A stretch of 64,000 nucleotides of DNA from assembly GCA_001769125.1 (NCBI GenBank), contig MEOG01000039.1, positions 1 to 64,000 on the forward strand. Direction: 5' to 3'. This stretch comes from Bacteroidetes bacterium GWF2_35_48. GTDB taxonomy: Bacteria > Bacteroidota > Bacteroidia > Bacteroidales > GWF2-35-48. Position 1 is the stretch's first letter; every line of letters starts with the position of its first letter. Under the pieces are notes generated by a model. It ran no database searches, was not told the origin of the DNA, and saw nothing but the letters and a program-made list of their open reading frames with translations. This document shows positions 37,922 through 42,335 of the stretch, piece after piece. Made by a program: the position numbers and the translations under genes.

Positions 37922-39712
37922 CTATTTTTCGCTTCTGTCAATATAGTTCGTATGTAATAACTCATGAGACTTTTGCCCAAGAGGTTTTTCTATGAATTCA
38001 TTATAAATTTGTACTATTTCTGGATTTTCATGAGATTTTCTAATAGGCATTCCTGTATCTTCCATATAAATTGCTTCACTCCTTTTCATAAGAATTTCAG
38101 CATTAGTAGGAATAGGCTGACCTCCACCACCAATACATCCACCTGGGCAAGCCATAATTTCAATAAAATGATAATTCGCCTTTCCGCTTGCAACATTTTG
38201 CATTACTTTTTTTGCATTAGCCAAACCATGAGCAATTGCTGTATTAAGAGTTACACCTTCAAGAAAACGCCACTCGGGTAAAGTCCTTTCTATTTTTACA
38301 GAAGTTTCTTTCACGCCTTCCATTCCTCTGACAGGTTTAATTTCTAAATTTGTAAATGGAACTTCCCTTCCGGTAATAAACTCGTAAGCTGTACGTAATG
38401 CAGCTTCCATTACACCGCCTGAAACGCCAAAAATTACAGCAGCCCCTGTTGATTGCCCCATAAAGCTGTCATATTTTTCTTCTGGTAATGATCTAAAATC
38501 AAGACCTGCCTGTTTAATCATCACTGCGAGTTCTCTTGTTGTAAGGACATAATCAACATCTTTATAACCACTGGAGCGCATTTCTGGTCTATCTGCTTCA
38601 AATTTTTTAGCAGTGCAGGGCATAATAGAAACTGATACTATTTGCGCCGGATCAAGATTTCTTTTCTTTGCATAATATGTTTTAGTAAGCACTCCAAACA
38701 TCTGCTGCGGAGATTTGCATGTTGATACATTTGAAAGAAATTGTGGAAATTCGTGTTCAATAAATTTTATCCAACCAGGTGAACAGGATGTAATCATCGG
38801 TAAAGCCACGGTTTTATCATTTTCAACCAAAGCTTTTTTAAGTCTGGTTAAAAGCTCTGTCCCCTCTTCCATAATTGTAAGGTCGGCCGCAAAATCGGTA
38901 TCAAGAACAGAGTCAAAACCTATTTTTTTTAGGGCAGAAACCATTTTACCTGTTACAATTTCGCCATGCCTCATATCCAAATCTTCCCCCAGAGCCACTC
39001 GTACCGCAGGAGCTGTTTGAACAACAACATGTTTATTCGGATCATAAATAGCATTCCAAACTTCTTCTATATAATTTTTTTCAATTAAAGCACCAACCGG
39101 ACACCTGATAATACATTGACCGCAATTTGTACAAACCACATCAAACAAAGATTTTTCCAGAAAAGTAGAAATTTTCATGTGTTCACCTTTATGTGCAACA
39201 ACTAAAGCGCTTACTGACTGAAGTTGTTCGCAGGTTCTTACGCATCTTTGACAACGAATACATTTACTGTTATTTTTAATTATGGAAGGTGAAAAATTAT
39301 CAATCGTGTAATTATGCAGAGGAACAAGATCTATAAAATTTTCATTTGTGATTTTATATTCTGCAGCAAGAGATTGAAGCTCACAATTACCATTTTTATA
39401 ACATTTGGTGCATTCCGAATTATGTTCTGATAATAACAATTCAATAATATGTTTTCTTGCGGTTCTGACTTTAACCGTATTTGTATTAATAACCATCCCC
39501 TCAGAAACAGGGGTCGCACATGAAGCCGTTAATGTTCTGGCGCCTTCCTGTTCAACAACGCATACTCTGCAATTTCCGGCTACACATAAATCAGGGTGGT
39601 AGCAAAGAGTTGGTATTTTAATATTCACATTTTTGGCGGCATTTAAAATGCTTGTTCCTTCTACAACGCTGACAACTATACCATCTATTTTTAATTTTAT
39701 AATATTTCCCAT
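37922..39712 (-). CDS. hydA: [FeFe]-hydrogenase catalytic subunit (NAD-linked, HydA/HndD type)
   Basis: A 596-residue hydrogenase that reduces protons or oxidises H2. Modules in order: [2Fe-2S] domain with C37, C48, C51 and C65; His-Cys [4Fe-4S] with H97, C101, C104 and C110; two ferredoxin clusters (C151, C154, C157, C161 and C194, C197, C200, C204); then the H-cluster domain. L1 reads TSCSPGW (308-314), L2 MPCTAKKFEA and L3 EIMACPGGCIGGGGQP. In the well-studied CpI enzyme L1 is TSCCPGW, so the second cysteine, an H-cluster ligand there, is serine here (S311); an extra cysteine lies at C332 in STCKSPQQ. I believe this variant may occur in related trimeric hydrogenases but cannot confirm it. 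The last gene of the hydCBA block, separated from hydB by a 166-base repeat-containing gap. Confidence 0.93.
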   Translation of the reverse strand: MGNIIKLKIDGIVVSVVEGTSILNAAKNVNIKIPTLCYHPDLCVAGNCRVCVVEQEGARTLTASCATPVSEGMVINTNTVKVRTARKHIIELLLSEHNSECTKCYKNGNCELQSLAAEYKITNENFIDLVPLHNYTIDNFSPSIIKNNSKCIRCQRCVRTCEQLQSVSALVVAHKGEHMKISTFLEKSLFDVVCTNCGQCIIRCPVGALIEKNYIEEVWNAIYDPNKHVVVQTAPAVRVALGEDLDMRHGEIVTGKMVSALKKIGFDSVLDTDFAADLTIMEEGTELLTRLKKALVENDKTVALPMITSCSPGWIKFIEHEFPQFLSNVSTCKSPQQMFGVLTKTYYAKKRNLDPAQIVSVSIMPCTAKKFEADRPEMRSSGYKDVDYVLTTRELAVMIKQAGLDFRSLPEEKYDSFMGQSTGAAVIFGVSGGVMEAALRTAYEFITGREVPFTNLEIKPVRGMEGVKETSVKIERTLPEWRFLEGVTLNTAIAHGLANAKKVMQNVASGKANYHFIEIMACPGGCIGGGGQPIPTNAEILMKRSEAIYMEDTGMPIRKSHENPEIVQIYNEFIEKPLGQKSHELLHTNYIDRSEK

Positions 39713-39736
39713 TTGTTTAAATTTATTAGGTTGTGT

Positions 39737-39861
39737 CTCCTCCGAAAAGCCTTATTTAATTATTTTCCCGCAGATATCGCTGATTTTCGCTGATGAAATT
39801 TACTGATCTACAATATACAATTTATCTGCGTAATCAGCGGGAAATACTTATCGGATAGGAC
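39737..39861. repeat. Nested inverted repeat inside the hyd operon
   Basis: Outer arms tcctccgaaaag and cttatcggatagga are imperfectly complementary. Inside, ttttcccgcagatatcgctg and tctgcgtaatcagcgggaaa form a second pair. The structure fills the gap between hydB and hydA, so it is transcribed if the three genes share a message. It may set the ratio of HydA to HydBC or may simply be an inserted repeat. Confidence 0.65.
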
Positions 39862-39878
39862 TTAATGTTAAAATTATT

Positions 39879-41054
39879 TTAATAAATCATTTCTTCTTTA
39901 AAATTAGTAACTATTGAAGAAAAAGAATTTGCGACAGATTGTCCAAGTCCGCATTTCGCGGTAAGTTTCATTGATTCTGTAAGCTTAAGTAATTTTTTAA
40001 GATAATCTTCGTCTTTCGCTCCGTTTTTCACAGCTTTAATGCCCTGAACTAATTGCTGGCAGCCAACTCTGCATGGAGTACACTGACCACAGGATTCCTC
40101 TGCAAAAAAGTGAATAAAATTTGACAAAACATTGTACATTGAACGGGAACTATTAAACAACATCATAGAGCCACCTGTTGGAACACCTTCAAATCCTATA
40201 ATTGTTTCATTGAATTTTTTTCTTGGCACACAAAAACCAGAAGCTCCACCAACCTGAACAGCTTTAGTATCTCCATCTCCATATTCATCTACAAAATCAG
40301 ATAATTTCATTCCTAATTCCAGTTCATAAACTCCGGGTTTTGAGGTATCACCAGAAATTGAAAAGACTTTCGTTCCTCTTGAATCATGAGTTCCTAATTT
40401 TTTAAACTCTGCAACACCGTATCTTTGAATCATCGCAACATTCACGAATGTTTCAACATTATTAATAACAGTGGGTTTATTATTGAACCCTTCGATTACA
40501 GGAAACGGTGGTTTGTTTCTGGGTTCTCCTCTCCTGCCCTCCATAGATTCCATTAAAGCTGTTTCTTCACCGCATACATAAGCGCCACTTCCCATCAAAA
40601 TCTGTATAGAAAAATCATATCCCATTTTTTGGATTGTGGTATGAAATTCATTTAAAAATTTTGTTAATTCCGGTACCATGAATTTATATTCACCACGTAA
40701 ATAAATATATCCTTTTTTCGCATTAATGCAATAACCACAAATAGCCATACCTGCAAATACCTTTCCTGGTACTTTTAATAAAATTTCCCTGTCTTTAAAT
40801 GTACCCGGTTCTCCTTCATCGGCATTGCAGATAACATATTTTTCAGCTTGTTCCTGAGCGGCTGCAAATTTCCATTTTAATCCTGTAGGAAAACCTGCGC
40901 CACCACGACCTTTAAGCCCTGAGTCTATAATTTCATTTATTATGTCTTGTGGTTTTTTCTTTAGTACGCTCTCAAGTATGGGATATTTTTGACCGTCGGT
41001 ATGTTGACAATCACTAAAAATAACATCGGTTTTTTTAAAATTATTTGACCTCAT
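39879..41054 (-). CDS. hydB: NADH-binding flavoprotein subunit of [FeFe]-hydrogenase (HydB/NuoF type, short form)
   Basis: A 391-residue NuoF-like subunit that accepts electrons from NADH via FMN. The NADH/FMN motifs are clear: GRGGAGFPTGLKW (49-61), CNADEGEPGTFKDREI, GAYVCGEETALMESMEGRRG and the C-terminal [4Fe-4S] site ESCGQCTPCRVGC with a later cysteine in AKCGLGQS. The protein stops soon after this core. HydB of well-known bifurcating hydrogenases is about 600 residues, with an N-terminal thioredoxin-like [2Fe-2S] domain and C-terminal ferredoxin domain; both are absent here. This suggests a simpler NADH-linked enzyme. Its start is five bases downstream of hydC. Confidence 0.93.
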   Translation of the reverse strand: MRSNNFKKTDVIFSDCQHTDGQKYPILESVLKKKPQDIINEIIDSGLKGRGGAGFPTGLKWKFAAAQEQAEKYVICNADEGEPGTFKDREILLKVPGKVFAGMAICGYCINAKKGYIYLRGEYKFMVPELTKFLNEFHTTIQKMGYDFSIQILMGSGAYVCGEETALMESMEGRRGEPRNKPPFPVIEGFNNKPTVINNVETFVNVAMIQRYGVAEFKKLGTHDSRGTKVFSISGDTSKPGVYELELGMKLSDFVDEYGDGDTKAVQVGGASGFCVPRKKFNETIIGFEGVPTGGSMMLFNSSRSMYNVLSNFIHFFAEESCGQCTPCRVGCQQLVQGIKAVKNGAKDEDYLKKLLKLTESMKLTAKCGLGQSVANSFSSIVTNFKEEMIY

Positions 41055-41059
41055 ATTGA

Positions 41060-41527
41060 TTAATTTTTAGAACGGTATTCATGAATAATATTAATAATTT
41101 TTTCAGATGTAAGATTGGTGTAAGGAGTTTCGTTAATAAGCAAAGACGGTTCCTGGTCGCTCCAACCAATGTCGTTTGTTTCAAGAAGAGAAAACATTCT
41201 ATCTGGAGTTGTTTGTCCCACTTTAATTTTTAAACTGTTTTCAAGAGTTTTCAATATTTCTTTTTTACCTTTCATTTCAGCAATAATAGATTTGCATACC
41301 CGAATTACATATTTACCCCGGGGTTTAATGTCGAGGAAAGAATAAAACGATGCAGTGCCGTAAACTTGTGCAGCAGAAATATCAAGTTGGCGAGCAATTT
41401 CAGTCATTGCTTCTTCCGATAAGAAATTTTGTTTTTCTACTACAGCCTGTAAAATAGGCATTAGAGCACCTCTTTCTCGTCCATGTTTCTCTGCTAAAAT
41501 TTTTACCATTTCTTTAATTTCTGTCAT
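41060..41527 (-). CDS. hydC: HydC/NuoE-like subunit with missing cluster cysteines
   Basis: A 155-residue subunit of the thioredoxin-like [2Fe-2S] ferredoxin family (NuoE, HydC). The helical N-terminus and the fold landmarks (YGTASFYSFLDIKPRGKYVIRVC, GQTTPDRMFSLLETNDIGW, SLLINETPYTNLT, each quoted in part) match NuoE. However the four ligand cysteines should be in CxxxxC and CxxxC: only C78 remains; position 83 is Ala, 119 is Asp and 123 is Ser. A [2Fe-2S] cluster of the normal type cannot be held. The subunit may be structural only. It is the first gene of the hydrogenase block, with hydB five bases downstream. Confidence 0.88.
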   Translation of the reverse strand: MTEIKEMVKILAEKHGRERGALMPILQAVVEKQNFLSEEAMTEIARQLDISAAQVYGTASFYSFLDIKPRGKYVIRVCKSIIAEMKGKKEILKTLENSLKIKVGQTTPDRMFSLLETNDIGWSDQEPSLLINETPYTNLTSEKIINIIHEYRSKN

Positions 41528-41640
41528 TGTATTTTATTTAATGAATATTTGTATGAATACCTAAAATCTTTTATCACTCCGTCGCAGCTATGGCGATCAT
41601 TTATCTATTTTTTTTTATTATATGAAATAGGAGTAAGAAA

Positions 41641-42335
41641 ACCTGTAATCGAAAAAAAGGGAATTCTTTTATCTGCAACAAAATTATCTTCCAATACAGA
41701 TGATTTGGCAATAATCAAATTGAAAATTCTTTCCAGAAGATTGTTTTTCTTTTGTACTCCGGCAATGATATTATGTGTTGCGGCGTATAATGGAGTTTTT
41801 GAGCTGGGCATCCAAACAACAACATTACCACACACGGCAGTCAACATTGCATTCCAAGCCCATACAGCCACAGGAAAATTAAAAGAAGTTATAGCCCAAC
41901 AATTCCTAGCGGATGATACTGATCTGTACATCCTGTGGTCTTCCCTTTACGAATGCATTGTAAAACCATTCAGCAAATAGAACTAACCAACGTCAAAATC
42001 ACAAATATCAATCATTTCCTGAACTTCTCCAAGTCCTTCCTGATATATTTTGCACAATTCCAAAGAAACCAGATAGCCCAAATCTTCTTGCGTATCTCCT
42101 AGCGCAAGACCTATTTGCCTCACAATTTCACCTCTTTTTGGAGCCGTCATTCTTCTCCAGAAAACAAAAGCATCCTGCGATTTACTCATTACTTTTCCAT
42201 TATCATCCAGTTTTGCATTCTTTCCTTTCGCAATGATATTACCATCAATTGGAGATTCAGAAACTGTAAGATCACCTTGTGTGTCAAAGCAGATTGTTAA
42301 GGTTGTTGCTCCTGAGCCTACTTCTTTAAGTCTCC
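41641..42335 (-). pseudogene. Remnant of ALDH7-type aldehyde dehydrogenase gene
   Basis: Reading the minus strand from about 42335 gives successive pieces of an ALDH7-type (semialdehyde) dehydrogenase: SESPIDGNIIAKGKN, FWRRMTAPKRGEIVRQIG, YQEGLGEVQEMIDICDF, then in-frame stop TAG, GFTMHS, stop TAA, HRMY, a frameshift into DQYHPLGIVG, and a shift back into ITSFNFPVAVWAWNAML and PFFSITG. Similarity ends at 41641, so only about the first 240 of roughly 510 residues are represented; the catalytic cysteine half is gone. No ATG starts the frame. Two stops, two frameshifts and loss of the 3' half make this a decayed gene. It sits immediately upstream of hydC on the same strand. The open frame on the other strand (41549-41980) is its shadow. 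Confidence 0.85.

Follow-up and report, generated by a model that had tools for sequence, protein, structure and literature searches.

The off-path cluster of NADH-linked enzymes is called N1a in complex I and C1 in HydABC, and its role is a long-standing question. Removal of its ligands from complex I tends to destroy the enzyme: mutations at the equivalent cluster destabilise it or block its assembly (PMC3898324). In complex I of A. aeolicus and E. coli, a peptide flip and the release of NAD+ are under the control of the N1a redox state (PMC6560083). Among [FeFe]-hydrogenases, the NADH-dependent, ferredoxin-independent Hyd1ABC of Syntrophomonas wolfei has three subunits and a short HydB (407 aa) without the N-terminal [2Fe-2S] and the C-terminal [4Fe-4S] domains, and its measured 29 Fe fit a cluster set that includes the HydC-type [2Fe-2S] (PMC5626996). 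Non-bifurcating [FeFe]-hydrogenases with a short HydB are already known (PMC5626996, PMC7311640). The bifurcating HydABC/Bfu family has a homologous HydA, HydB core and HydC fold, but its core holds six conserved clusters in subunits B and C (PMC9499530, PMC9304861), which all bifurcating enzymes retain (PMC9304861). A cluster-free NuoE-type domain as such is already known from HoxF, a subunit of the soluble [NiFe]-hydrogenase by which Ralstonia eutropha reduces NAD+: its NuoE-like domain lacks most cluster cysteines and carries no cluster at this site, yet the enzyme is NAD-linked and active (PMC3189943). A ligand is also missing from the 24-kDa NuoE-like module of the fused, NADH-linked [FeFe]-hydrogenase of Nyctotherus ovalis, but there a single cysteine of the four has been replaced, by Trp, and a ferredoxin-like function could remain according to the authors (PMC2216082).

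The operon described here lies in the genome of the uncultured Bacteroidetes bacterium GWF2_35_48, within a stretch of 64,000 nucleotides (contig MEOG01000039.1) that is called the window throughout. Like S. wolfei Hyd1ABC it encodes three subunits with a short HydB that likewise has none of the additional domains, but its HydC lacks three of the four cluster ligands; against the six clusters of the bifurcating core stand one in HydB and probably none in HydC. The closest precedent is HoxF, which did not figure in the reasoning of the earlier note on this DNA. HoxF unites NuoE and NuoF parts in one protein and belongs to a [NiFe]-enzyme, whereas the window has a separate HydC in an [FeFe]-enzyme and, unlike HoxF, a fixed set of replacements and living relatives with all four cysteines. 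A literature search, which was incomplete, returned no paper on cysteine-lacking HydC in Bacteroidales; among the cases found, this is the first free-standing HydC from an [FeFe]-hydrogenase that has a fixed set of residues in place of three ligands, although priority is uncertain.

The hydCBA operon and its cluster ligands

The three genes are arranged in the order hydC, hydB, hydA, with a spacing of 5 bp between hydC and hydB. The features are:

41060–41527, minus strand: hydC, NuoE/HydC-type subunit of 155 aa with ATG start; C78 is kept, A83, D119 and S123 stand at the other ligand positions
41276–41296, minus strand: first cluster loop of HydC, residues 78–84 (CKSIIAE), with C83 replaced by Ala
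41144–41176, minus strand: second cluster loop of HydC, residues 118–128 (NDIGWSDQEPS), with C119 replaced by Asp and C123 by Ser; E126 and S128 are likewise fixed in the cysteine-less set
39879–41054, minus strand: hydB, short NuoF-like subunit of 391 aa with an FMN/NADH domain and one [4Fe-4S] cluster
37922–39712, minus strand: hydA, catalytic subunit of an [FeFe]-hydrogenase, 596 aa, NCBIfam NF040763 (group A6, NADH-dependent)

The gap between hydB and hydA (39713–39878, 166 bp) contains an inverted repeat of 21 nt (39764–39784 and 39824–39844, 81% complementary). Directly upstream of hydC, an aldehyde dehydrogenase fragment (41605–41931, minus strand; Pfam 1.7e-13) is apparently a broken gene.

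The Pfam domain 2Fe-2S_thioredx covers the entire HydC (E 2.9e-41), and an AF2 model built from 15 sequences (pLDDT 92) matched NuoE and HydC chains, among them E. coli NuoE and T. maritima HydC, in Foldseek with TM values of about 0.77–0.85. The predicted fold is intact despite the missing ligands, and the NuoE/HydC fold named by the earlier note is borne out by both searches. That note had also read three of the four ligands as gone and had given codon strings for VCKSIIA and DIGWSD; residues, coordinates and both strings proved correct. Only one of four ligand cysteines (C78) is left, no further cysteine occurs in the whole 155-aa sequence, and in most cysteine-less members there is no replacement cysteine elsewhere in HydC. 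E84 was considered as a substitute ligand and ruled out, as it is Val in one cysteine-less member. Since three ligands are lost and replacement cysteines are missing, we infer that HydC carries no [2Fe-2S] cluster; judged by its sequence, it is homologous by fold to the thioredoxin-like [2Fe-2S] subunit NuoE/HydC, but is not a cluster protein of that kind.

In HydB, only Complex1_51K and NADH_4Fe-4S were found by a domain search of the 391 aa, and neither the N-terminal [2Fe-2S] nor the C-terminal 2x[4Fe-4S] domain. Its [4Fe-4S] ligands (C322, C325, C328 and C368) are present and invariant among relatives, and the HydA ligands for a [2Fe-2S], a His-ligated [4Fe-4S] and two [4Fe-4S] clusters are, together with the H-cluster cysteines, present and conserved in relatives as well. 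The clusters of both subunits had been described as complete; this holds for the ligands that are present, all of them conserved, but HydB is without the further cluster domains that a bifurcating HydB carries at its two ends.

HydA scored 878 bits against NF040763 (curated cut-off 765) and HydB has about 400 aa without extra cluster domains, as in group A6 (S. wolfei type); the short HydB as a mark of the non-bifurcating class was taken from the S. wolfei study (PMC5626996). Bifurcating HydABC/Bfu enzymes are defined by six conserved clusters in the BC core (PMC9304861), from which the window enzyme departs in both subunits, as the HydB domains and three HydC ligands are absent. The claim that loss of the HydC cluster would bar it from a role in bifurcation is moot: the extra HydB domains are missing here and in the four-cysteine relatives alike, and since the HydB architecture for bifurcation is absent in either HydC state, the ligand loss is irrelevant to it. 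A short HydB of about 390 aa is common to cysteine-less loci and four-cysteine relatives, which suggests that the short HydB most likely preceded the cysteine loss.

Distribution and conservation of the cysteine-less HydC

A scan of contigs revealed 11 relatives of hydC in Bacteroidales, of which nine share the loss and two have all four cysteines. In a search of 393 Bacteroidales genomes, in which most of the better matches were retrieved and a few loci were seen twice, 136 related loci were found, 123 with four cysteines and 13 with Cys, Ala, Asp and Ser at the ligand positions (C-A-D-S); intermediates between the two states did not occur among the 136. The C-A-D-S state is present in 12 distinct genomes, that of the window and 11 others, the 13 loci including two genomes twice. 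Outside Bacteroidales, an exact-pattern search for NDIGWSD, which other forms could escape, found the motif in none of the sampled genomes. The only other genome of the same genus (G001, rated 90% complete) yielded nothing HydC-like at an E-value of 1e-15 or below; within the genus the operon was lost, missed in G001 or recently gained.

The cysteine loss is genuine: since C-A-D-S recurs in 11 further genomes, a sequencing error is excluded, and the frameshift or assembly error that the earlier note had set as its refuting check was not found, the frame being open. That hydC is decaying, or that the missing cysteines stem from an assembly error, could be suspected from the loss of the ligands of the sole expected cofactor, but is extremely improbable in view of the same state in 11 other assemblies, the open frame and the distance of only 5 bp to hydB. 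The pattern of substitution also speaks against decay. Values of dN/dS were 0.02–0.07, far below 1, in those pairs for which dS could be estimated, most pairs being saturated, and the loops are more conserved than the rest of HydC: the four most divergent cysteine-less members are 84–99% identical to other cysteine-less HydC in the loops and 41–79% in the remaining segments. The loop codons have diverged synonymously (70–91% nucleotide identity), and S123 is encoded by TCT in one cysteine-less member and by AGY in the others. The replaced pocket is maintained by purifying selection and does not drift, as indicated by the conserved loops, their synonymously diverged codons and the low dN/dS.

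A comparison of 12 cysteine-less with 36 four-cysteine sequences identified five HydC positions that differ without exception (83, 119, 123, 126 and 128), all of them within the two cluster loops. Fully fixed compensating changes in HydB or HydA were not found between these 12 and 36 sequences.

A probable cluster-free scaffold in an NADH-dependent hydrogenase

With a probability of roughly three in four, as judged from the sequences, HydC is a cluster-free scaffold within a non-bifurcating, NADH-dependent [FeFe]-hydrogenase, whose loop set most likely had one origin and then spread. By homology, electrons would move between NADH, FMN, the [4Fe-4S] cluster of HydB, the cluster chain of HydA and the H-cluster, and HydC would be retained to support HydB structurally, with the fixed set A83, D119, S123, E126 and S128 filling what was once the cluster pocket. 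Without the side cluster, a one-electron store beside the flavin would be gone, and so would a redox brake on NAD+ release like that exerted by N1a in complex I. The earlier note had argued that the enzyme could work since the cluster lies off the main path; a working enzyme is indeed likely, but the argument was too easy in view of the unstable or unassembled ligand mutants of complex I (PMC3898324). Because such mutants are unstable and the natural loss is stable, the analogy suggests compensating changes, of which E126 and S128 may be part.

Against a mere scaffold stands the invariance of C78, for which there is no obvious need there. Indeed, all 12 cysteine-less HydC share C78, D119, S123, D124 and E126 without variation, which exceeds the apparent need of packing and could point to a different metal site, with a mononuclear metal or a non-canonical cluster on C78 together with D119, S123 and/or D124. 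We consider this unlikely: A83 is unable to act as ligand, residue 84 varies, and D124 is also common among four-cysteine relatives and hence no new feature. We know of no metal site of such kind in the NuoE/HydC fold. Equally unlikely is the more general idea of a pocket rebuilt as another functional site, be it a non-canonical metal or a redox-active C78, that would act on the flavin of the hydrogenase instead of the [2Fe-2S] cluster.

With HydC as a cluster-free scaffold, this uncultured Bacteroidales group would be a natural experiment, in which the cluster cysteines of one subunit are stably replaced in an otherwise ordinary NADH-linked hydrogenase. Since close relatives with and without the ligands share the same short HydB and are small soluble enzymes, direct measurements could show what the cluster does for stability, for the release of NAD+, for the direction of catalysis and for the formation of radicals.

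History of the loops and other modules of the genome

In a HydC tree that included the loop columns, the cysteine-less sequences formed one clade (100/99). Without these columns three changes were needed, and the AU value for one clade was 0.053; the N-terminal part without loops was borderline against one clade (0.058; few columns), and the C-terminal domain without loops favoured one clade, again with few columns. In the HydB tree one cysteine-less clade was not rejected (AU 0.42), whereas the HydA tree rejected it strongly (7e-42) and required four changes. Both HydC states are present within two families.

The cysteine-less HydC is paired with four HydA lineages, so that its loops either spread by recombination or, less likely, originated repeatedly. 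For the hydCBA operons of loci L007–L017, L057–L074, L176–L193 and L223, the HydA tree is in strong conflict with the HydB and HydC trees, which suggests that hydA has often been exchanged between them. Convergence, by which the identical loop replacements arose several times, is doubtful, though somewhat less so than a new metal site, and it concerns the history and is compatible with a cluster-free scaffold. It would account for the three changes in the HydC tree without loop columns, in which L177 joins the four-cysteine sequences of its own family (96/91), for the four changes forced by HydA and for the two families with both states. However, several positions carry identical residues, and Cys to Ala and Cys to Asp each need two base changes; one clade is favoured by the loop-free part of the C-terminal domain and is compatible with HydB, and hydA was exchanged among these operons anyway. 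From the phylogenies, the loop-bearing HydC domain most likely had one origin, followed by recombination among Bacteroidales operons with different HydA lineages; the single origin is weakened by the three-change tree (AU 0.053) and is not secured.

The genome of the window also encodes HydG and a second HydABC of bifurcating build (L155, contig C122), whose HydC has four cysteines and whose HydB has 648 aa. Together with L156 on C86 and L157 on C41, L155 makes up a set of three more HydB/HydC-type modules built like bifurcating ones, which comprise a HydABC, a module with a 1197-aa partner beside a glutamate dehydrogenase gene and a HydC-HydB fusion of 785 aa. Another locus (L158, contig C88, 7018–11478) contains a gene for a formate dehydrogenase alpha subunit with an in-frame TGA after DHCARL; it adjoins genes that resemble selA and selB, an arrangement like that for a selenoprotein. 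In its fused NuoE-NuoF partner the first cysteine pair is lost (VDTNIPA), likewise in three other genomes; as read from the sequence, the genome of the window thus has two domains of this kind with cysteine losses that differ from each other.
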